From: Quercus robur
Taxonomy: Eukaryota; Streptophyta; Magnoliopsida; Fagales; Fagaceae
Direction of reading: 5' to 3'
Assembly: GCF_932294415.1 (NCBI RefSeq)
Contig: NC_065536.1
Coordinates: forward strand, 59,917,354-59,981,353
Length of the DNA stretch: 64,000 nt
Numbering within the stretch: position 1 is the first letter of the stretch; every line of letters starts with the position of its first letter. Positions 3,081-59,100 of the stretch are shown here, piece by piece. The notes beneath the pieces are model-generated. The model was not told where the DNA came from, did no database searches, and worked only from the letters and a program-made list of their open reading frames with translations. The translations under genes were made by a program, and so were the position numbers.

Positions 3081-3898
3081 TATAAGGACCTGATTTGAGA
3101 TCCTAGCCCAAGTTATGAATGAACTTAGGCCCAAAAAGCCCAAAAACAATGAATTTGTAGAGAAATGGGTTGGAAAACTAGGCTATAATGAATTAGACTA
3201 ACTAGAAAATATGTTTAAAGGAGAAAAGGATGTGTATGAACAGGTTTATAATGAATAAAATCATCATCAGCAAAGTCTGAGGAGATATGTTCTTATGTAT
3301 TTTTTTCAAGTCTGATTACAAAGTCAGTTCTAGATGCTACAGTAATTTTCCCTCTCTTTTTTCGATCCCCTAGTCTCATTGCCCCCTTCTTCTTTTATAC
3401 TGTTTCCCCATATCATCTCCACCTTCCATATGCATGCCCGATGGTTGGTGTTGATACTTGTCCCATCTGCACCTCCCATAAGTCTTCATGTAGCAGCTGT
3501 AAGGCTAATAATCACTGTTCAGGTATCACATCCACATTAATGCGGTCAGAGAGTTAGCTGTAATGCATTTAATGCGGTGGTAACAGCTTTCTCTTTAGAT
3601 ATTTTAGGACTTCTCCCTTTCCTATGTCTCTGCCGCGCCTATTTATATTGACCAAACTTCCTGAAACGTTCCCCTGAATAATGGATCACTCCTCTTGACC
3701 TCAATTTCCATTAGCCGATGAGGTATTTATCCTCGGAAAATCCTCCTAGGCCATTATGACCAAAATCAACTTCTTCATTTACTAACACAGTCTCTTTTGT
3801 CAAAGATTTTTCCTCCTCGAACGACTCCTAGTCCTCGACTTAGGCCACAGGTCCAATATACAAACAGATACTAGACCCCTGGGCCCAATGTCCCTACA
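3081..3898 (-). mobile_element. Solo LTR (818 bp) with CAATC target duplication
   Basis: A perfect 5-bp duplication CAATC (3076-3080 and 3899-3903) flanks a segment whose ends mirror each other: plus start TATAAGGAC, and minus start TGTAGGGAC. The expected TG at the plus start reads TA, which a single G-to-A change explains. On the minus strand a TATA box (TATAAATA, 3640-3647) follows about 250 bp of U3 that begins TGTAGGGACATTGGGCCC. There are no coding domains. Its ends resemble those of the solo LTR at 47985-48741, so the two may belong to related families. Confidence 0.65.
3640..3647 (-). promoter_or_regulatory. TATA box of the solo LTR at 3081-3898
   Basis: TATAAATA on the minus strand within AATATAAATAGGCGCG. 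Confidence 0.45.
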
Positions 3899-3908
3899 CA
3901 ATCAATTA

Positions 3909-3913
3909 AAGCC
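3909..3913. repeat. Target-site duplication AAGCC (left)
   Basis: It matches AAGCC at 14215-14219, directly outside the two LTRs of the Ty3/Gypsy element, which defines the insertion borders to the base. Confidence 0.9.
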
Positions 3914-4553
3914 TGATGGGGAAGTGGAAAATTAGTCCAACTCCGATTCGTCCAAAGGCATCGTCCAGAGCCAATAGAGCAGGTTGGACCAAGAATCACC
4001 CCAGAAGAATATAAAATGTTCATGGAAGATGATATTACTCTTGATCAGTGAAGTCTCCCATGGACGATAAACTCGTCCATGGACGATCATCAGATGTCCA
4101 AGGACGACCAGATCATCATACACTAGACGGACAAACACACAACACTTAGAAAACTTTCGACTCTCTATAGCGGTTACTAAACCCATAGCTATCGCCATGA
4201 ATCCCTCAAATGAGTTAACTTCCGTTAGCGGTTACAACTTTAGTAGCCATTGAGGAAGTTAACTCCAGACTCATTGGCTTCCACAAATCTTGGGGAGGTT
4301 ATTGGACAAATAATTGTCCCCAGGATCTCTATATAAAGGACCGGTCTGAACCCGAGAAAGGTAAGAACTTTCTGAGACTTGACTCCCAAAAACTTGGAAC
4401 TTCATTCCTGTGAGACTAACTTTGCCATCGGAGGGGATTTGGCCGGTCTTCTCCGGTCCCCTTTTTTGACAGCGTTTGCTTTCTATAGGCCTTCCATCGC
4501 TTAGTAGCCCACCGAAACCAGAACATCCAACTTACTGATTCGAAACGATATCA
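3914..4553 (+). repeat. 5' LTR (640 bp)
   Basis: It starts TGATGGGG and ends CGATATCA. U3 holds several GGACGA/TCGTCC hexamers, including the 14-bp palindrome TCGTCCATGGACGA (4073-4086). A TATA box lies at 4330-4337. The copy at 13565-14214 aligns along its full length. Confidence 0.95.
4330..4337 (+). promoter_or_regulatory. LTR TATA box
   Basis: TATATAAA within CTCTATATAAAGGACC, about 415 bp into the 5' LTR. The identical motif is at 13991-13998 in the 3' LTR. It places the U3/R border near 4360. Confidence 0.75.
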
Positions 4554-4555
4554 GT

Positions 4556-4564
4556 TGGCGCCGT
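4556..4564 (+). promoter_or_regulatory. Primer-binding site, tRNA-Asp-like
   Basis: TGGCGCCGT begins two bases after the 5' LTR. It is complementary to the 3' end of plant tRNA-Asp (...ACGGCGCCA). The following bases (CTGTGGG) depart from that tRNA, so the match is 9 nt. Confidence 0.7.
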
Positions 4565-4619
4565 CTGTGGGAAGAGAGAGATTGTTTTGCAACTTTCTTT
4601 TCTGCGACAAAAGGTTAGG

Positions 4620-6011
4620 ATGGTTAGGACTAGATCGAGGGCCACTAGCCCAGGCCGTCAGGGAAGCAGAGGCACTTCAAGCGATCCCGAACGCGATCGC
4701 CAATCTACACCAGCCATGCAGACATCATCTGTTCAGCATGTGCAATCTATAGCGGCTGCAATGGCGGAGTTGACTCGCCAAAACCAAGAGTTAAGAATGG
4801 AGATCAATCAGAGAAGACAGACACGTGAGGAACGTGAAGGAGGCGGACAAACACAAGGTCATGGTGATAGAGAAAATACTGAGATTGGAAGTCAGTTAAG
4901 ATGCACCACTTCACGGACGGTACCACACTTGAAAGAAGAGATGGACCAAATGAAGAAAGTCATGGAGGAAATGAAGGAGAACATGAGGAGGACGAATCCT
5001 ATAGAAGATCTGGTCCACAGAACTGACTCTCCCTTTACGGCTTCCATCAACGGTCATCCTCTACCATCAAAATTCAAACTGCTTTCCCTGGATTCGTATG
5101 ATGGAATGCGTGACCCATTTGATCACATTGTTACTTTCAAGACAACGATGCACCTTCAAGGGGTCCCTGATGAAATCATGTGTAGAGCCTTCCCTACCAC
5201 CCTTAAAAGCCCGGCACGAGTTTGGTTCAGCAAAATACCCCCAAGTTCTATAGGTTCTTTCGAAGAGTTAAGCAAATTGTTTGTTAACAATTTCATTAGG
5301 GGACAGAGACACAAGCGTTCTTCGTCCAGCTTGTTGACCATAGAGCAAGGAGAGAATGAAAGCCTGCGGTCATTCATCACTCGCTTCAACAGAGAAGCCC
5401 TTAATGTGGACGAGGTAGACGACAAGTTTCTATTGGCGGCCTTCCATAACGGGATTAATTCTGATCTATTTATCCACAAGCTATATGAGAAGGAGCCTCA
5501 AACCATGGCTGAGCTCGTCCATTCGGCTTAGAACGTCATGAATGCAGAAGATGCGATCATAGCCAAGAAGAGGAAAAGAACTGAAAGGATGGAAGCGCAC
5601 CCAACACGCCACTCAGAACAAGGCCCTCGTCCAAAGAAGGGGCAGACGGAAGATAAGAAGGAACGAGATAACAGAAAGACAGGTCCTTTAGGAAGAAGCC
5701 AGAACTACACATCCTTGAACGCTCCACTTGATCAGATGCTCATGCAAATCAAAGACGACCCTTCTCTAAAATGGCTAGAGAAGATGAAGGGAGATCCCAA
5801 TAAGCACAATAAGAGTAAATGTTGTCGCTTCCATAGGGACCATGGGCATGACACAGATGAATGTTATGACCTGAAGCAGCAAATTGAGAATCTTATTAGA
5901 CAAGGAAAGTTGAGGCACTTCGTTGGAAGGGATCATCAAGATGAGAAGTTGAAAGGAAAAAATGGAGGAATCATCCCAGCCCCCACTAGGAAAGATAAGG
6001 ATTATCATTAG
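4620..6011 (+). pseudogene. gag of the Ty3/Gypsy element (one stop, then frameshift)
   Basis: The first ATG after the primer-binding site is 4620. The predicted order is a basic N-terminus (VRTRSRATSPGRQ), a short coiled coil (about 4935-5000, EEMDQMKKVMEEMKE), and a retrotransposon-gag domain (about 5040-5520). TAG at 5529 interrupts it, then the frame continues with a basic linker and a zinc knuckle of the CX2HX4GHX4C form (5820-5862, CRFHRDHGHDTDEC) typical of the Tat lineage. The frame runs out at 6011. The continuing pol reading is displaced and enters near a run of six A (5957-5962), so a one-base indel there is the simplest explanation; programmed shifting cannot be excluded. The TAG fits a CAG-to-TAG transition. 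Confidence 0.85.
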
Positions 6012-8560
6012 AGGAAACTCAATGGGGCAATCTTCCAAGTCAAAGAAGACATATCTCAAAGTGGTACAAAACTTCCAACTCTCTGGACGATCACCAAGGA
6101 CGAGATCAATGGACGAGCCGACCATTTCCTTCACCGACGAAGATGCTGAGAGGATCCATCACCAACATGACGATGCAATTGTCATTACCCTGCTTATTGC
6201 AGATTATACAACCAAGAGAGTGTTAGTTGACAATGGAAGCTCAGCAGATATATTGTACTACCCTGCCTTCCAACAGATGAGACTTAGGCAGGATCAACTT
6301 CGTCCAGTATGTTCACCATTGATAGGGTTCGAAGGAATGAAGGTATAGCCCGTAGGCACCATTACATTACCAGTAGTGGTAGGGTCATACCCGCAGCAGA
6401 TAACTAGGGAAGTTAATTTCCTTGTGGTGGATTGCTCGTCTTCTTACAATGCCATTATTGGAAGACCAACTCTGAACAGTTGGAAGGCGATAACATCTAC
6501 CTACCATCTATCAGTAAAATTCCCTACGGAGTACGGGATAGGGCAAGCACAAGGAGATCAGTTGGTAGCTAGAGAATGCTATTTAGCCATGATGGCTTTG
6601 GACAAACAAGTGCAGACAATGAGTATCGAGGAAAGAAGGGTTGTTGCAGAGCCCACAAAAGTACTGGAAGATATTCTTTTGTAAGAAGATGATCCCGAGA
6701 AATTCACCAGAATTGGAACAGGTATGAAGGAAAAGGCAAGAAAAGACCTCATCCAGTTCCTAAGAAAGAGTATCGATGTTTTTGCATGGAGTCATGACGA
6801 CATGCCAGGAATCGATCCAAGTGTAATCACTCATCGATTGAATATGTACCCTTTTTTTAAGCCTGTTCATTAGAAGAAAAGGGTGTTCGCCCCTGAACGG
6901 GATAAGACAATCAAGGAAGAGGTTCAGAAATTGACCACGGCACAATTTATTAAGGAAGTCTATTACCTGGATTGGTTAGCCAATGTGGTGATGGTGAAGA
7001 AAGCAAATGGCAAGTGGAGAATGTGCGTAGATTTCACTGATTTGAACAAGGCTTATCCCAAGGATAGTTATCCTTTGCCACGCATTGATCAATTGGTACA
7101 CTCTACGGCTGGCCATCAGTTGTTGAGTTTCATGGACGCCTTCTCAGGATATAATCAGATAAAGATGGACGAAGTTGACCAGGAAAAGACCTCCTTCATT
7201 ACCAGCCAAGGCTTGTTTTGCTATAAGGTGATGCCCTTTGGTTTAAAGAACGCAGGGGCAACGTATCAAAGGTTGGTTAATCACATGTGTCGTCCACAGA
7301 TAGGACGGAATGTAGAGGTCTATGTCAACGACATGCTTGTGAAGAGCATAGACAAGGGAAGCCATTTGGACGATTTACAGAAAACCTTTGAAACACTTAA
7401 GCGATATAAGATGAAATTGAACCCAAGTAAGTGTGCATTCGGAGTATCATCGAGGAAGTTTTTGGGGTTCATGGTTTCGCAAAAAGGAATTGAAGCGAAT
7501 CCAGATAAGATCCAAGCCATATTGGACATGGAACCACCGAAGAACATCAAGGAAGTCCAATCCCTCACTGGACGAGTTACTGCTTTGAACAGGTTTGTTT
7601 CAAAAGTCACAGACAAATATTTACCTTTCTTCAAAGTCCTCAGGAAGGCATTCGAATGGACGGACGAATGTCAAAAGGCCTTCCAAGACCTGAAGGACTA
7701 TCTCACTACAGCTCCATTATTAAGTCTGTCTGTACAAGGAGAAGGACTGTACCTGTACTTAGCGGTGTCTCCACATGCTGTAAGTTCAGCTTTAATCAGA
7801 GAGGAAGGGAAAATACAAAAACCCGTGTACTACACTAGCCGAGCACTCAGAGGAGCAAAGGGAAGGTACCCACTTATAGAGAAGTTGGCTTTTGCACTGA
7901 TAACAGCTTCTATAAAGTTAAGACATTACTTCCAAGTTCATGTCATCAATGTCATGACGGACCACCCGCTCAAGAAGGTAATGAATAAGCTGGAAGCTGC
8001 AGGACGGCTAATTCAATGGGCTGTGGAACTTAGTGAGTTCGACATTTGATACCAACCGAGAAATGCAATAAAGGCTTAAGCCCTAGCAGATTTCATTGCA
8101 GAGTTCACTCCGAGTTACGAAGATCTTGGAGAAAGAGAGTACAATAAAAAATGGGTCGTCCATGTAGATGGATCGTCTACATTGCATGCTGGAGGAATAG
8201 GAGTTGTTTTGCAGTCACCAGAAGGAGACAAATTAAAGTACAAGGCTCGTTTGCAATACCAAACTACCAATAATGAAGTGGAGTATGAGGCCCTTTTAAA
8301 GGGGTTGGAGTTGGCTAAGTCTGTAGGAGCAGACTCAATACTTGTCTTGGGAGACTCTCGGTTGGTCATAGGCCAAGTAAATGAGATGTGTGAAGCCAAG
8401 AAAGACAGAATGAAGAAATATCTAAAGAAGGTAGTGCGCCTTGTGAAAAAATTCAAAGAAGCTGATTTCATTCAAATCCCAAAGGAAGAGAATGTGGAAG
8501 CAGATGTTCTGGCAAAGGAGGCATCTGCGAATGAAGTAATGGACGAGTTGGATGCAGTAC
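5962..8560 (+). pseudogene. pol, first part: protease, reverse transcriptase, RNase H, archaeal-type RNase H
   Basis: One reading frame with six internal stops (6346 TAG, 6682 TAA, 6871 TAG, 8047 TGA, 8077 TAA and none in between); the five listed are all the stops before the aRNase H. Protease is at about 6200-6350 with VLVDNGSSADIL at the active site. RT spans about 6960-7560 with LLSFMDAFSGYNQI and VMPFGLKNAGATYQ. Its catalytic box reads YVND instead of YVDD (codon AAC at 7327-7329), a G-to-A change that should abolish polymerase activity. The RT-linked RNase H (about 7620-8110) starts YLAVSPHAVS and lacks the usual first catalytic Asp, as expected for Tat elements. The second RNase H (about 8150-8530) keeps D (VDGSS), E (NEVEYEAL), D (LGDSR) and D (EADVLAKEA). 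Confidence 0.9.
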
Positions 8561-8589
8561 AATACATGCCTAGTATAGACCTTCTAGAG

Positions 8590-9853
8590 ATGCTGCAAAT
8601 AGAGGGTGATGAAAATTGGATGACCCCAATAGTGTCATACTTGAAGAACGGAAGGCTTCCAGAAAAGAAGGACGAAGCTAGGAAGCTCAGGGTCAAATCA
8701 GCCAGATACATACTTATGGACGAAGTGTTATGCAAAACAGGTTTTTCCCAGCCTCTCCTAAGGTGTTTGGCTCCGGACGAGGTAAACTACATATTGAGGG
8801 AGGTTCATAAAGGAGCATGTGGTAACCATTCGGGAGCCAGATCACTCGTCCATAAAGTCATCCGTAGCGGATTCTATTGGCCAACCATCCAAGCTGATAT
8901 TAAGGCATATGTTAAAGTATGTGATCAATGTCAGCGCTTCAACAACATTCCTAGACAGCCAGCAGAGTATCTCACGCCAATGATGACCCCTTTGGCCTTT
9001 CGCGCAATGAGGATTGGACATTTTGGAGCCCTTTCCAACTGGAACTCGGCAAATGAAATTTTTGGTGGTAGGAATAGATTACTTCACAAAATGGGTGGAA
9101 GTCTAACCCTTAACAAAAATTACACAACAGAATGTCAAGAACTTCGTCTAGAAGAACATTGTATGTAGATTCGGGGTACCTAGGGTATTAGTGTCTGACA
9201 ATGGACGACAGTTTGATAATACACCTTTCAGGGAATTTTGTGAACAGCTTAGAATAAAGAACCATTACTCCTCACCCTCCCACCCACAGGCCAATGGCCA
9301 GGCGGAAGTAGCAAACCGATCCTTGTTGAAGATCATCAAGACTCAGCTCGAAGGGGCAAAGGGAGTATGACCGGATGAGTTACCAAGTGTTCTGTGGGCT
9401 TACAGAATGACAGTGAGAACTCCAATAGGAGAAACTCCTTTTAAACTAGCCTATGGAAGTGAGGCAGTTATATCGGCAGAAATACATATAACGAACCACA
9501 GGGTGAGGAAATATCAAGCTGAAGAAAACGAAGAACAGCTCCGTCTTAACCTCGACCTTATGGACGAAGTCAGGATGGATGCAAAACAGAGAACAGCGAG
9601 GTACAAAAATCTTATGGCAAGACAATATGATGCCATGGTGAAACCCAGGCGCTTCAACATCGGGGATCTCGTCCTGAAGAGGATTACCTTGGCAACAAGA
9701 AACTCGGCCTACGGGAAACTGGGGCCAAATTGGGAAGGACCTTATAGGGTTATCAACTGCAAGAGGCAAGGATCCTACTATTTGGAAGTTTTGGATGGAC
9801 GGAGGCTGGAACACCCTTGGAATGTTGAGCACCTAAGGAAATACCATCAATAA
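8590..9853 (+). pseudogene. pol, last part: integrase (frameshifted, four stops)
   Basis: The N-terminal zinc-binding HHCC module (H-X-K-G-A-C-G-N-H ... CDQC, about 8800-8940) is in the same frame as the RNase H domains. Near 8985-8993 the frame shifts by one, and the catalytic core continues with stops at 9008 (TGA), 9104 (TAA), 9149 (TAG) and 9368 (TGA). The D, D and E residues are still readable: GLDI (about 9011-9022), VSDNGRQF (about 9194-9217) and GQAEV. From 9371 to 9853 the C-terminus is open, ending in GPYRV and a final HPWNVEHLRKYHQ. The TGA stops replace expected Trp codons and TAG at 9149 also fits Trp. No chromodomain follows, consistent with a non-chromoviral Tat element. Confidence 0.9.
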
Positions 9854-9855
9854 AT

Positions 9856-11008
9856 GCTGACTCTTGACGAAAGTGACCACAGACAAGATACCTGGATGAG
9901 CGGAAGTATTCTCATGTTTGTTTACTACTACTACGTGTTTTAAGTATTTCAATAATCCCCTAGAAAGTACATTAGTGTTTTCACTTTTGTGCTATTCATG
10001 GACGAGTTGGGTTGTATTTTTAATTCCCTAAGGCACTAGCTCACGAGCATGTGCCATGCCTGTGGACGAATGTTTACATAAGTTTGGATTTTCAGATATA
10101 TATATGATGTATTTTCAAGTATATTGTGTGGGAATCCTTTATTTTTGTATATTCATTCAGAATGATCCACAAAAAAACATATAAGCATGGACGAATGAAA
10201 TCCTTGGACGCAAAGATGTATCGTCCATAAGCTTCCCTCAAAAGGAAAAATGAAACAAGGTACATCCGTCCAAAGCTTAAGACGAGATGAAACCTGAGTT
10301 AAAATGAAACAAGGTACATCCGTCCAAAGTTTAAGACGAGATGAAACCTGAGATGAACAAGATATATCCGTCTAAAGCTCAAGACGAGATGAAATCCGAG
10401 AAATGGTCATCCAAAACATGGACGAACAAAGATTGCAAAAGCACAAGCCCATAAATGAATCTAACCAGCGTAACAATCCATTGCATGGACGAGAAATTGC
10501 TGGGAAGTATTATCAAGGACGGAAATATGGTCGTCCCTAAATTTGAATAATGAATAAAAGACTAACCTAAAAGGAAGTCATTCATAGACGAACAGTACAT
10601 ATAAAAGGATTCAATTTGCTCTATTTCGGTGATGTAATAAAAAATTCACCCTTATACTCAAGACGAGGCAAACTGAATTCTTGGGTGGACGAACCACACA
10701 GCCACAAAAATGATATGAATAATGAAAATAAAGTTTCATACATAAAGCTGGAAATGTATGTATTCAAACACAATGGAAGGTGAAAATAGAAAATATTCAT
10801 TTGTTCATGGAATTTAAAAAGGGTGGACGACCCACGTCCAAAAAAAAACCCTTTAGTTGTGAAAATAAAACTAAATGTAAAACTCGTCCATAATCTTGGA
10901 CGAGACAATTGTACTTACATGAACTTGAATGAAAAAAGTAAAGAACAAAGCCCAAAACAATGGGCACTTCCAGATAAAAGTAAAATAAATTTTCTAAGGA
11001 AACTGCAA
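9856..11008. other. Post-pol spacer of the Ty3/Gypsy element
   Basis: Non-coding DNA between the pol stop and the 3' end of the antisense gene. It contains a 54-bp tandem repeat (10247-10400) and dense GGACGA/TCGTCC hexamers: 10000, 10064, 10189, 10221, 10420, 10487 and 10531. The short open frames on both strands overlap one another and carry no recognised domain. Confidence 0.7.
10247..10400 (+). repeat. Tandem repeat, 54-bp unit, about 2.9 copies
   Basis: Units at 10247-10300, 10301-10354 and 10355-10400 (last one shortened). The first two are nearly identical. Each contains 'tccgtc[ct]aaag' and 'aagacgagatgaaa'. Confidence 0.9.
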
Positions 11009-13234
11009 TCACTTGGGCAAGCTAGTCTTGGGGTCGTCCCGGGTGACTTCAGTATTAGCATCGTCCATTATGTTGACGTCCTCAGAACTCGTCTGCAACA
11101 AGGAACTTTCAGTAGCAAAGGGAAGCTTGAAAGAATTGAAGTCCAAGTCAGGATATGCCTCCTTAGCATCAGCACGAAAGTCCTCATAGCCAACTGCATA
11201 GTGGCTGTCTAGACGATTTTTGTACTCGTCAGACTTTTTAAAGGCTGTAATGGCTTCTTCACGTGCTTTCTCTAAGGACGAGGCAAACTCTGAGACTTGT
11301 CCTTCGAGATGGACGATACGGGTATCCTTCTTTAAGTTATCAGCTTTAAGCTCTTCCACCTCGTTCTTCAACTTCGTCTCACTTCCTTGTAGACGATTAA
11401 AATCCTCGGTCAACCTAAGGACCTCCCCCTTTTTGAGTAGAACTTCATTGTTTAGCTCCTTAACTTTGTCTTTAGCCGTCTTAGCCTCTGTAGCAAGCTC
11501 CTTAGCTTGGCAGGTTGCTGTATAAAACTTTGACATAGCCTGCATGTGGACGAAAGGGAGTTAGACATCCTATTCAAGTTAAAAAAATTTTACACACAAG
11601 GACGGGGGAAAGACTTACCTTAAAAAGATCATGGATGCCAGAACGTTCAAATTCCTTCACTGACATGTTGTAGCATTCATTAACTTCACGCTCAGTGACA
11701 ATTCCTTTGAACGTCCACCATGCATAACCCTCGTCCAGAACCAGATTGGAAGGATGATCAGAGGGCTCCGATGAACTAGGCTTGCGAGAAGCTTTGGGTG
11801 GAGGGGGAGGATCAGTCTGGACGAGATGGATTGTTTGGACGGGCTCCACATCCACGAGAGGGTTGTCCAAGTTCACTGTCGGAGGTGTAAACTTGGGGAC
11901 CTTGGGAAGGGAAGTCTTACCAAGCTTTTGCTTTTTAGGGCCTTGATGACTAGGTAGGTCGTCCAGGTCCACGACACTGGAAATTGACTTAGACTTCCTC
12001 TTCCTAGCCTGGACGGAAGCCACTTGGACAGTTGGGGGTGCAGCAACATCCTCGTCCCCACTAGTCACTGTTTTCTCTTTGTTTTCCCTCATTGTAGTTA
12101 TCCCTGTGACGAGGAAAATCAATAAAAAAAAAAAAGGGAAATGAAATAAATTGGACGATACTTACTTTGACGAGTAGTCTCCTCGTGACTAAGGTTCTCT
12201 GCAGTAGGCACTAGGCCGAGTCCCTAAGTTGCTAGATGACCGAGATTTACCAAATCGTGGAAAGTTCTCCCAGGGAAGGTACGAACCACGTCTATCCGAT
12301 CCAAGTAAAATTTGTCCAAGCGTGGACGAACAACAGCTGCATCACCAAGAGAAAGAGTTAGACGATTGAAAGATAGGAAAAAAGTAAGGAGAAACGAAAT
12401 AAAATGGAAAGAAAACATACCCTCAGGACGAAGACGACCTAGAGGGCTGGTAAAAGGTGGGAAGGGGGGATTACCCATATCAGCTGGGTCCCCAGCCCAA
12501 ATTCCAGAAATAATAAAAAATTCTTTTTTCCAAAACCGGTCAGACGAGCTACGACCCTTAATTAAACTGTAATAAGAGCCCCTGGACGAGAACTGATAAA
12601 AACCAGCAGATTTCTTGATCTCCGAGGGCTTATAACAGTAAAGGAACTCGTCCACCATAATCGGACGGTTCCCTTCTAGTGCCTCACGCCATAGCACTTG
12701 CATAGCGACTATCGTCCTCCAACCATGGGGGTTGAGCTGGTTAGGTCTAATACCCAACCTTTGGAAGAGGTCTCTGTAGAAAGAATTTAGAGGAAACCTA
12801 AGACCAGCTAAAAGGTAAGAAGTGTATACCCCTAAACCAGAGGAAGGAGAACAACACCATTCTCCAGCCTTGGGTAGACGAGGGTTAAGCTCTTTAGGAA
12901 TTTGATATGTATCTACAAGAGTTTTTAACTTGGCAGCATCTAAAGTGGGTGCCACCTCTAGGGCACAACTATAAATGACGTCTTCCTCGTCTTCTTCCTT
13001 GTCTTGAGGAGGGCTAGATGGCTGTCTGGACGAGCTAGCCCCAGATCCAGAAGTCATCCTACGTTGTAGTTCCTGAAATTCCTCTAAGGGAATGCCAGGA
13101 ACCCCGGACAAGTAATGCTCGTCTGAGGAATCACTACAGGACGAGCTATCTACATTATCCTCGCTACCCTCACTCCCAGAGGAACCGTCCTGGTACTCGT
13201 CTATCTCCCTCTCTATACTACTAGACGAAGACAT
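11009..13234 (-). pseudogene. Antisense four-exon gene of the Ty3/Gypsy element (about 666 aa, one premature stop)
   Basis: Predicted exons on the minus strand: 13234-12421, 12336-12166, 12103-11619 and 11539-11009. Introns of 84, 62 and 79 bp start GTATGT, GTAAGT, GTAAGT, end TGCAG, CACAG, TGCAG, and are T-rich. Exon phases 1, 1 and 0 close perfectly. The protein begins MSSSSSIEREIDEY with an acidic serine-rich stretch. A central domain (about residues 90-270, e.g. LRFPLNSFYRDLFQRLGI) resembles the plant 'putative gypsy type transposon' family. A Lys/Pro-rich linker with KRKSKS follows, then a coiled coil (exon 4, KVKELNNEVLLKKGEVLRL). A single TAG (12226-12224) in exon 2 breaks it, and reading continues in frame beyond. 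Antisense extra ORFs are known in Tat elements; function is unknown. Its own promoter motifs lie upstream (see 13371-13495). Confidence 0.75.
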
Positions 13235-13370
13235 GGTTGAAATGTAAAAAGATTTAAGATGAAAACCTAAAAAGAAAGAGGAAATACCTGATAGAACTAG
13301 GACGAGACTCTTGGACGAGATGACAGAAGGGAAAATGAGAGGAAAGTAAGGGGCATGAAAGAGAATGCAC

Positions 13371-13378
13371 TATTTATA
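13371..13378 (-). promoter_or_regulatory. TATA box of the antisense gene
   Basis: The minus strand reads CCTATAAATAG, about 135 bp upstream of the antisense ATG (13234) and inside the element but outside the LTR. A start site near 13345 would give a leader of about 110 nt. Confidence 0.6.
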
Positions 13379-13425
13379 GGCCCCAGCAACAGGGTCAGTG
13401 AAACGACGTTCGCCACTCAAAAATT

Positions 13426-13435
13426 GACACGTGGC
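13426..13435 (-). promoter_or_regulatory. G-box/ABRE, proximal copy
   Basis: GACACGTGGC (minus strand GCCACGTGTC), a canonical CACGTG G-box bound by plant bZIP and bHLH factors, 48 bp upstream of the antisense TATA box. Confidence 0.55.
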
Positions 13436-13485
13436 GGTTCCTTTGGGAAACGGGATCGACATGACTAGCCAACCAACAGCTTCGC

Positions 13486-13495
13486 GACACGTGGC
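13486..13495 (-). promoter_or_regulatory. G-box/ABRE, distal copy
   Basis: A second exact GACACGTGGC, 60 bp from the first. Two identical 10-mers in a 70-bp interval are unlikely by chance, and the arrangement looks like a functional promoter for the antisense gene. Confidence 0.55.
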
Positions 13496-13550
13496 TCACA
13501 AAAAAGTGAAATCTTATTAAAATCACAACAATATCCTGGACGACCCTTTG

Positions 13551-13560
13551 AACAAAGGGG
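13551..13560 (+). other. Probable polypurine tract
   Basis: GAACAAAGGG, four bases before the 3' LTR. It is short and interrupted, but it is the only purine run at the expected site. Confidence 0.45.
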
Positions 13561-13564
13561 CAAC

Positions 13565-14214
13565 TGATGGGGAAGTGGAAAAGTCCAACTCCGATTCGTC
13601 CAAAGGCATCGTCCAGAGCCAATAGAGCAGGTTGGACCAAGAATCACCCCAAAAGAATATAAAATGTTCATGGAAGATGATATTACTCTTGATCAGTGAA
13701 GTCTCCCATAGACGATAAACTCGTCCATGGAGGTCGTCCATGGACGATCATCAGATGTCCAAGGACGACCGGATCATCATACACTAGACGGACAAACACA
13801 CAACACTTAGAAAACTTTCGACTCTCTGTAGCGGTTACTAAACCTGTAGTTATCGCCATGAATCCCTCAAATGAGTTAACTTCCGTTAGCGGTTACAACT
13901 TTAGTAGCCGTTGAGGAAGTTAACTCCGGACTCATTGGCTTCCACAAATCTTGGGGAGGTTATTGGACAAATAACCGTCCCCAGGATCTCTATATAAAGG
14001 ACCGGTCTGAACCCGAGAAAGGTAAGAACTTTATGAGACTTGACTCCCAAAAACTTGGAACTTCATTCCTATGAGACTAACTTTGCCATCGGAGGGGGTT
14101 TGGCCGGTCTTCTCCGGTCCCCTTTTTTGACAGCATTTGCTTTTTGTAGGCCTTCCACTGCTCAGTAGCTCACCGAAACCAGAACATCCACCTTACTGAT
14201 TCGAAGCGATATCA
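13565..14214 (+). repeat. 3' LTR (650 bp)
   Basis: Aligned to the 5' LTR it differs by about 23 substitutions, a 3-bp deletion near its start, and a 13-bp tandem duplication of TCGTCCATGGAGG (13721-13733). The 14-bp palindrome TCGTCCATGGACGA is at 13734-13747. It is followed by the right target duplication AAGCC (14215-14219). Confidence 0.95.
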
Positions 14215-56106: not shown

Positions 56107-59100
56107 ATGGGGGCGTGTGTTTCCGCGCCTGAAGGGTGTGTTGGTGGGAGATTGAAGAATAGGAAGAACCGGAAAAGGAGGAGAGTAGGAGGACTCAAAC
56201 AAAAGGTCCCTTCTCGTTTATCTGAGGGATCACTGGACAGGGTTGATAGGTCTGCACCATCTGATAGATCCTATGCCAACCCCACTTTCCAAGGTTTCAT
56301 CTTTCTTCCTCTCTTTATGTTTTTGTTTTTTCTTTCTTTCTCTAGAATGGTCTTTGGTATAAGTTGTGGGATAACATGAAGAGCAGGTGGTGTTTTTAAT
56401 TATTATTATATTGATAAATTTAAGATTTTTATTTTTGGGTTTGTGTTTTTTGTGTGGATTTGTTGGTGGGTTATGTTGTTGGACATTTTCTTTTGTTGGT
56501 TTTGTTTTATGGTTTGGGTTATAGAAGGTGTGTTTTGGATTGCTAAGAGTACAGCTTTTGGAAATTATGTGAGTCTGCTAATCTGTTATAGCATGAATGC
56601 ACACTTGTTTTAAGTGAGAGAGAAAAAAAAAGTGGCATTTCTTTACAAAAGTGACTCAATTATTGAGTTTTGTGATGATAGGATGCTGGGGTAAAGTACA
56701 CGTAAATTATTAGTTGGTTTTCTTCTGTTTTGAGCTTTTATGCAAAGAAAGATATTTCTTTATGTGGGGTTTTGATCTATATATTACAAGAATAATCTTG
56801 GTTACCTCAAGTTATCTGCAATTTTCTTTACATGCAACTTTGTTGGTAAGCTCAGAAAGTTGAGGATAAGTTTGAGTTGCTTTTTGTTAACATTGGTAGT
56901 TGAATAGAATGTGGTTGATTAAGAGGGGGATAGATTATATTTTTTGAATTGATCAGTGATCCAGATGGAAATTTTATGAATTTGATTGTTCTTGACAGCT
57001 GGAGGAGATAAATCACTTTGTCCTTGATTCTTAGTTTACTGGGAGATTAGCATACTGATTTTTAGCAATTGTACCCTGATAACTAATTGACCTCAATAGG
57101 GGACTTTGAGAGTCCATTTCTAGGTGAATTGATGTACCAATCATAGGAAATTTTCTTTTGCAGATATAATAATTGTGAAAGCCCTCCATGTATAACCATA
57201 TTGCATTTGGTTTGAGTTGTCTCAGTGCTAGTTAATGTGCCAAGAACTGAAAATGGTATTTTGCAAGGGTTATGAACAAGACAGCCTTGCAATTTGATAT
57301 TGTTGTGAGAGATGGCTTCTGTAACTGGATTTTTAGGTCTGAAGTTCAATGTGCTTGGATCAAAAAGCAATATGGTTTGCCTGTCTAAGAGACTGTGCAT
57401 TGAAGTTTTTGAAATGCTAACAGTAGTTCTGGTCAAGTGGCAAATGAACTTTCGATATTGGGCATGTCTATAGGATAACCATAGGAGTGACTGTCCTATT
57501 AACTGAATATCACAGAGCTTCCTAATTATGGAAAGAAAGCTGTCATTGGAGGTTTGCTAAGTAAACGGCTAAGAATATAAATTTGTTTTTCACTGACAAT
57601 GTAACATGAGGTGTATAATCTAGAAAGGTGGACCTTCTCATGGATTTAAGGCTTGCAGTGATTACGTTATCAAAGATGAAGACCTGGAACATTAGGGGAA
57701 CTTGCGAGAAATATGCAGTGTATAAAGCTTATTGACTTCTCCAATAAATCTGCTTTATCAGTCGCATTGAAGATATTGGAGCATAATCTTGCTTGTTATT
57801 CTTCTACTTTCTTTGTTCTGAAACTTTTGCCATTTTTTGAACATATGATGAATTAGGAGCCAAAATTTCCCTGAAATACTAGTCTAGCTTTGGCTAACCA
57901 TGTAATTAAGCATTGAATTCTCAAATTATGTGTCACTGTGATTTTCTTATATCATTCCCCTGATTCTGTTCAATATGATGACAGGATCAGGACAAGTTGA
58001 AGAGGCATGGTTTGATTCAGCTGCAATTCTGGAGTCTGACTGTGATGAAGATTACCAAAGTGTTGCAGATGGTATGATTTTGTAGATACTTAGACTCAAA
58101 TACAAATGAGGATTATTTTCCTTCGCTTTCTGATAGAAGAGATATGTTTATATTTGACTTATGCATACCAATGATATCTGCAGATGTGTTATCTCTGAAC
58201 GGCTTTGAAGGTGCATCCGTATCAAGTATTCCATCTCTGAGAGATGCCAATCATTGGGACCATAATCTCAATAACCATCATACTTATTCCACCAATCATA
58301 TGCAGAAACCGGGGGATTTGTCAACAGGGAATTCTGCACTCGACTCTGTTAATGAGCTTTCTAGATGTGGACCTTCAAATGAAGCAAACCATCCTGTGTA
58401 CCTTGATGAAGTCTCCTCGTCTGTGGATGGAAGTCCTGGCAAGGAGGCAGGAGTGTTAGATAACTGTGGGATTCTTCCAAGCAACTGCTTACCTTGTCTT
58501 GCATCCACTGTTTCTTCAGTTGAAAAGAGAAGATCATTAAGTTCTAGTCCGCCAAGTTCGAGAAAAAAGGCTTCCTTAAAGCTTTCCTTCAAATGGAAAG
58601 ATGGAAATGTGAATGGCCCTCTATGTGAGTATTGAGATTGTCAAATTTTGACACATTAGTTTCTTATGGATACAAACATAAATGGACCTCATAGAAAATC
58701 CAGCTTTACATCATCCCTAAAAAAAAAAAAAAGCTTTACATTGGGAGAATATAAGTAGAATTTAAATAGAGTGCAGTTTATCAATTTTGGTTTAGCATTT
58801 TCGTTCTACTAGATTGATGTGTGGTCATTCCAAATCCTTCTTCCTCCAAATAATTCATATTGATATTGATGGTGGTAATTTACACACACACACGCACACA
58901 CACACACTCACACGTGTATATTGTGGTGCTCAGTAGTAGTATAATTACATGGCATATACACAAGTAAATGCTTTCAGAGAGAAATATAAAACATGTGTAA
59001 GTTGAATAAGTTTAATTAATTATTTCTTTGTATGATTACAGTTTCCTCGAAGATGCTACTGGAAAGGCCAATAGCAGGTTCCCAAGTACCTTTTTGTCCA

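Follow-up and report, generated by a model that had tools for sequence, protein, structure and literature searches.

Does the strand opposite to gag and pol in an oak LTR retrotransposon carry a real protein gene with introns and, if so, what might the product of such a gene do? The window (the whole stretch of 64,000 nucleotides of Quercus robur DNA that was analysed) contains an element that raises both questions (Table 1). Our answer to the first is that the region between pol and the 3′ LTR very probably holds a spliced antisense protein gene of four exons and three introns of the spliceosomal type. The answer to the second is more tentative, and centers on a short DNA word that is dispersed over the element.

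The two LTRs of the element are 94.0% identical (23 mismatches and 2 gap openings over 654 columns), and the sequence AAGCC, which we take to be the target-site duplication, is found on either side of the element. Both gag and pol lie on the plus strand and are interrupted in this copy. The stretch from pol to the 3′ LTR (9854-13563) is 3.7 kb long and contains three frames of at least 150 codons, all on the minus strand; no plus-strand ORF of at least 150 codons occurs in it. Judging by its structure (LTRs, gag-pol and target-site duplication) and by the antisense TRP28 gene located between pol and the 3′ LTR, we classify the element as a probable Retand-type LTR retrotransposon. Retand is part of the wider Tat group, in which, as the sequence-only reading had noted, antisense extra ORFs are known; the name that recent work gives to elements with antisense TRP28 ORFs is Retand. 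Retand elements are known for such ORFs (PF04195) (PMC11963269; PMC7264820), and the 3.7 kb between pol and the 3′ LTR fall inside the published Retand range of 2.9-6.6 kb (PMC11963269). Beyond the element, two frames at 57083-57556 and 58078-58635 (157 and 185 codons) have no Pfam match at E<=0.1.

Table 1 Features of the window element and of its proposed antisense gene (positions are those of the window)
Feature	Position	Strand	Details
Whole element	3913-14214		10.3 kb; flanked by AAGCC target-site duplication
5′ LTR	3913..4553	+	Pairwise comparison with 3′ LTR
gag region	4539..6011	+	Two open pieces, each running from stop to stop, the first with PF03732
pol region	6874..9853	+	Interrupted; RT, RNase H and integrase pieces each in an open frame of their own
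Tandem array	10247..10403		54-bp unit x 3.1; CGTCCA (2), GACGA (3)
Exon 4	11009..11539	-	531 nt; predicted coiled coil, C-terminal tail, stop codon
Intron 3	11540..11618	-	79 nt, phase 0, GT..AG
Exon 3	11619..12103	-	485 nt; basic linker
Intron 2	12104..12165	-	62 nt, phase 1, GT..AG
Exon 2	12166..12336	-	171 nt in most copies; premature stop at 12224-12226 in window copy
Intron 1	12337..12420	-	84 nt, phase 1, GT..AG
Exon 1	12421..13234	-	814 nt; acidic Ser-rich N-terminus and TRP28 (PF04195) domain
TATA-box-like TATAAATAG	13370..13378	-	Candidate antisense-gene promoter; 144 nt upstream of ATG
3′ LTR	13564..14214	+	Pairwise comparison with 5′ LTR
Dispersed TGGACGA words	3913..14214	both	50 in element; core GGACGA 66

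The exon coordinates that had been proposed from the sequence alone were exact, and all three introns have the GT-AG borders claimed for them. It was also correct that intron 1 is divisible by three and free of stops, and that the frame is kept only if introns 2 and 3 are removed. The joined exons measure 2001 nt from the ATG through the stop, in agreement with the proposed frame of about 666 codons, but that frame is not open, as codon 309 is a stop in the window copy. PF04195 (Transposase_28) scores 25.8 bits in exon 1, which is 0.4 short of the cut-off of 26.2, and 30.7 bits in the model of the Q. lobata homologue. The structure model of this homologue has predicted helices at 478-586 and 588-612 that suggest a C-terminal coiled coil. 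The “gypsy type transposon” domain, basic linker and coiled coil named in the sequence-only reading recur in copies and relatives. The structure models are of low quality (mean pLDDT 60.8 and 60.5), no solved fold was found to match them, and they are too weak to back DNA binding by TRP28.

We compared the gene with other copies in the same genome (786 Mb, 42 contigs). A DNA search gave at least 44 matches, and 40 of 562 candidates were scored; the alignment consists of the window and 39 further copies. In 22 of these 40 copies, all six splice dinucleotides are canonical. For introns 1, 2 and 3, the donor is GT in 38, 38 and 40 copies, and the acceptor is AG in 34, 36 and 32. Of the 18 lost acceptors, 14 now end in CAA. 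Two copies have a joined frame without interruption, so intact copies of the gene exist; the other 38 are interrupted, frame-shifted or partial. None of the 40 copies has lost an intron. The sequence-only reading had argued that introns can survive here because the antisense strand is not the replication template. The argument is sound: with reverse transcription limited to the sense RNA, the introns would not be lost, and their presence in all 40 copies offers a natural marker for the copying of sense RNA alone.

The exons of the window family evolve as coding sequence under purifying selection. After four partial or rearranged copies were dropped, diversity among the remaining 36 was 0.085, 0.066 and 0.159 at codon positions 1, 2 and 3, and 0.117, 0.218 and 0.167 in the interiors of introns 1, 2 and 3, whose lengths drift among the copies. 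Indels divisible by three make up 52 of 77 in exons versus 32 of 118 in introns (35 copies against the window, the same four dropped, with an inherited indel entered once per copy); this contrast has a Fisher p of 3e-8 when indels are treated as independent. The median dN/dS of 630 pairs is 0.232 (range 0.12 to 0.96). Its mean drops steadily from 0.535 at dS<0.10 to 0.226 at dS 0.25-0.40 (the bins hold 510 pairs), which points to selection in the source lineage followed by neutral decay after insertion.

Conservation extends beyond this family. A search of the genome with the PF04195 profile (150 scored of 4149 candidates) led to a TRP28 tree of the window and 31 other loci, of which two (L074 and L078) are a single locus and were counted once. 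The tree has three clades: A, which includes the window, B and C. Locus L078 is a clade-B element of 9.8 kb with LTRs that are 98.5% identical. Its TRP28 region is 30% identical to that of the window, versus 73% for the RT-bearing piece of pol. The antisense gene of L078 has exons of 844, 180, 392 and 513 nt that join into a complete frame of 642 open codons, and the intron phases (1, 1 and 0) are those of the window. In this gene, the intron-3 acceptor that closes the frame is an AG 22 nt downstream of the AG tabulated first, which does not close it.

Splice sites were surveyed at 21 independent clade-B loci, with L048 left out. Intron 1 has GT in all 20 loci with sequence and AG in 19 of them, intron 2 has GT in 21 of 21 and AG in 19 of 21, and the intron-3 donor is GT in 21 of 21. 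Six of the eight clade-C loci were examined by eye (L050 and L060 were left out). L063 and L065 have the complete set of three GT-AG introns; at L064, L055, L071 and L051, one or two of the three are seen. The phases of L063, derived by hand from coordinates, are again 1, 1 and 0. The four-exon architecture with phases 1, 1 and 0 occurs in two further TRP28 clades of the genome.

These data bear on whether the antisense transcript might work as RNA, by forming dsRNA with the genomic RNA or by giving rise to small RNAs, with the frame being incidental. Regulation through dsRNA was raised for such antisense transcripts by Vicient and Casacuberta (2020, PMC7264820). We regard this as very unlikely for the oak gene, given the constraint on codon positions, the frame-keeping indels, dN/dS well below 1 and introns whose phases are conserved at about 30% TRP28 identity, which together call for selection on a protein.

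Gene models in other Fagaceae give a third level of comparison. The Q. lobata model P0001 (644 aa, 85% identical) and the Castanea sativa models P0009 and P0011 (47-48% identical) are contiguous across all three junctions, which read LRPEA|V, RRR|I.TM and HDLFK|AMSK or homologues of these. Models of the clade-B type (P0124 in C. sativa and P0125 in C. dentata) are also contiguous across the junctions. The models that disagree do so in particular ways: P0002, P0003, P0005 and P0020 skip stretches beside a junction, the second donor of P0133 (Q. robur, clade-C type) is a different one, and the third junction is not clear in a Fagus model (27-29% identical). In the ORFs P0008 and P0017 (on contigs of 1.9 and 4.7 kb), the frame continues across intron 1 and ends within intron 2, which is the behavior expected of unspliced DNA. 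Automatic spliced models are already in the databases as uncharacterized proteins, so what is new is the description of the exon structure and not its presence in the databases. Conservation of splice sites and phases, which the sequence-only reading had proposed to check, thus turned out favorably on three levels: within the family (40 copies), in a TRP28 family that is 30% identical, and in the Fagaceae gene models.

The stop in the window frame and the 38 copies that are broken or partial could suggest chance frames flanked by chance GT-AG words, with no gene at all. At the level of sequence, this idea is refuted by the conservation among copies, dN/dS, the other clades and the gene models, and we give it practically no weight.

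Four predicted oak proteins (P0144, P0148, P0151 and P0155) fuse exons of the TRP28 gene to unrelated host domains. They are probably annotation joins, and possibly cases of exon capture.

The antisense gene might itself descend from an intron-bearing host gene that was captured and later became a gene of the element, in which case it may still act on host targets. Capture is discussed in PMC11963269, and three intact introns imply entry by a route other than a spliced sense mRNA. By name, however, no host family stands out among the 22, 32 and 120 listed of 174 proteins, most of which are unnamed; the host-domain fusions look like annotation joins; and there is no TRP28 similarity outside elements according to PMC11963269. 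We consider such an origin improbable.

A candidate promoter of the gene is the TATA-box-like word TATAAATAG, which is almost invariant amid more variable neighbors (column diversity 0 to 0.056 in 36 copies). No TATA word was found in the 498 nt separating the LTR from the ATG of L078. Among five clade-C loci, two have none within 500 nt and three have AT repeats only, 411-468 nt upstream. The promoter word is therefore not conserved between clades.

Published Retand TRP28 ORFs resemble the oak gene in being antisense, in their position between pol and the 3′ LTR, in the Transposase_28 domain, in the length of that region (about 3.7 kb in oak, within the published range) and in a tandem array there (PMC11963269). 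They differ in that they were located by ORF Finder (PMC11963269), whereas the oak gene is divided into four exons by three conserved introns, and its element has a dispersed word. The word “intron” is absent from the main text of PMC11963269, and the two occurrences of “splic” belong to its reference list. A search for antisense and spliced transcripts is called for in PMC7264820, and a 2025 review of host factors (PMC12786077) brings up additional ORFs but no introns in antisense genes. Among the titles and abstract openings of the top-ranked papers, we found no report of introns in antisense TRP28 genes. Antisense TRP28 ORFs are the defining trait of a plant retrotransposon lineage that is widespread. 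Should splicing be the normal state of the gene, surveys based on ORFs may have covered only about the first exon, and the full product, with its TRP28 domain, basic linker and coiled coil, would become a definite object to express.

We now turn to the dispersed word. The commonest 7-mer of the window element is TGGACGA, with occurrences on both strands; the other 179 CG-containing letter permutations of this word average 1.17 each. The density of the core GGACGA is 6.4 per kb in the element versus 0.1 per kb at 14300-64000. With dinucleotide shuffles, LTRs, coding stretches and spacers are all enriched, on both strands. GGACGA lies above every shuffle in each stretch of the element tested (the 5′ LTR stretch was set as 3934-4372, shorter than the actual LTR) except 4373-4538, in the final part of the 5′ LTR, where no GGACGA occurs. 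The split between sense and antisense strands is 41 to 25, and words are also present in introns 2 and 3. The 36 copies have 18 to 38 GGACGA each in 3.6-3.9 kb, mostly at common positions. The related word TGACGA is not in excess in the window, with 0 in the gag-pol ORFs.

Synonymous-codon shuffles, which hold the amino-acid sequence and codon usage constant, give a mean of 3.9 GGACGA (max 10) for gag-pol, where 17 are observed, and a mean of 3.6 (max 10) for the antisense exons, where 15 are observed. Since both counts exceed all 1000 shuffles, the signal belongs to the DNA and not to the encoded proteins. A 3-kb piece around a PF08284 match, probably a Gypsy pol of another kind, is free of all four NGACGA words. 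The controls consist of shuffles, permutations of the letters, the part of the window outside the element and this one 3-kb piece. Against them, the GACGA-core word is enriched to a degree for which neither base composition nor the encoded amino acids account, and DNA-level selection on the dispersed word is likely.

A comparison of words over a full related element covers one such element, L078, which has 37 TGACGA and 23 GGACGA in its 9.8 kb. Its gag-pol lies above all 1000 synonymous shuffles for both words; TGACGA occurs there 13 times versus a shuffle mean of 4.5 and a maximum of 12. In its antisense frames, TGACGA is above all but 2 of 1000 synonymous shuffles, and an excess of GGACGA is not clear, being reached by 69 of 1000. 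Between the sense and antisense strands, TGACGA splits 26 to 11 and GGACGA 12 to 11. The aligned gag-pol pieces contain 17 words in the window and 18 in L078, only five of them at a shared position, and all three codon phases are represented; the places have therefore turned over, and the density has stayed. A tandem array in L078 (its positions 3593-3936) holds five TGACGA at 66-bp spacing. Both elements have their arrays in the spacer from pol to the antisense gene, and the units hold each element's own GACGA word.

Of 30 TRP28 loci, 25 have a GACGA-core word in their list of top hexamers, and in 24 it is ranked first; none is among those listed for L048, L052, L054, L058 and L068. GGACGA outnumbers TGACGA in the window (24 to 3 in the counts made for the clade comparison) and in all eight clade-C loci. 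In the 22 independent clade-B loci, TGACGA is ahead in 17, tied in 3 and behind GGACGA in 2. The word preference tracks the TRP28 clade, a pattern that plain descent would also give. The word might be a more important finding than the gene structure.

What could read these words? We propose that the antisense gene would be transcribed from its own promoter beside the 3′ LTR (TATAAATAG), spliced and translated, and that the product, with its basic linker, would go back to the nucleus. The coiled coil of exon 4 would make it a dimer or oligomer, and the TRP28 part would bind GACGA words on the DNA of the element. The many sites would lead to high local occupancy on the element alone. The bound protein might then keep the element transcribable, by anti-silencing or activation, like VANC on VANDAL DNA. 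TRP28 is predicted to contact DNA (Vicient 2025, PMC11963269). Binding of the word by the antisense protein, which we suggest by analogy, is a tentative idea with somewhat less than an even chance of being right. We give nearly an even chance to the whole chain of a spliced antisense gene, a selected word and a protein that binds its own element, in which the link of protein to word weighs most. The GACGA word is at any rate a concrete candidate target for the antisense protein, with a function that can be tested by one binding assay.

The words could instead serve a host factor, another protein of the element or an RNA, with the gene still being real. Host binders might be bZIP factors of the TGACG type, and the TGACGA of the related family includes TGACG. 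The lean to the sense strand (GGACGA in the window and TGACGA in L078) could be explained by a role in RNA, and the predicted structures give no support for DNA binding by TRP28. However, the GGACGA of the window is no TGACG site, and TGACGA has no excess there. In addition, words are on both strands of LTRs, coding stretches and spacers and also occur within introns 2 and 3 and the two tandem arrays, which double-stranded DNA fits better than RNA. We see a role of the words apart from the antisense protein as a serious possibility, if short of an even chance.

If the antisense protein does bind the word, the closest functional parallel would be VANC of the VANDAL elements (Hosaka 2017, PMC5735166), where family-specific short words also occur, often in tandem repeats. 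Pairing of protein and word is reported for VANC (PMC5735166), and is only proposed for the oak element. VANDAL elements, unlike the oak element, are not LTR retrotransposons. The words of VANC21 are mainly non-coding and have one orientation (PMC5735166), whereas oak words are also in gag, pol and the antisense exons. Binding and loss of methylation have been shown for VANC (PMC5735166) and are hypothetical for the oak protein. The parallel would be one of functional likeness, not of membership. A fuller version of our proposal is that the spliced antisense protein of oak Retand reads a family-specific GACGA word across the element and prevents silencing, as an independent counterpart of VANC in an LTR retrotransposon. 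This version would add that words evolve inside the element's own genes. Taken jointly, we think it rather unlikely.

Other known systems share single properties with the oak gene. HBZ of HTLV-1 is spliced and is transcribed from the 3′ LTR. We know of no homology between HBZ and the oak antisense gene. HBZ, which is named in PMC11963269, resembles the proposed gene in being an antisense, nuclear, regulatory gene of a retroelement. In maize, the Grande element has gene23 (Gomez-Orte 2013, via PMC7264820), an accessory gene in antisense orientation that lies between pol and the 3′ LTR. It has a promoter of its own and a nuclear product, both of which are only inferred for the oak gene. Ogre is a plant Ty3/Gypsy element with an intron; that intron is on the sense strand, between protease and RT, and is removed from a subset of transcripts (PMC6317226), whereas the oak introns are antisense.

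Two smaller observations concern the word. Retention of CpG within it is barely higher than at other CpGs. In clade C, the top hexamer of L050 is GACGAT (ATCGTC), with 21 in 3.2 kb versus 3 to 7 in close relatives.
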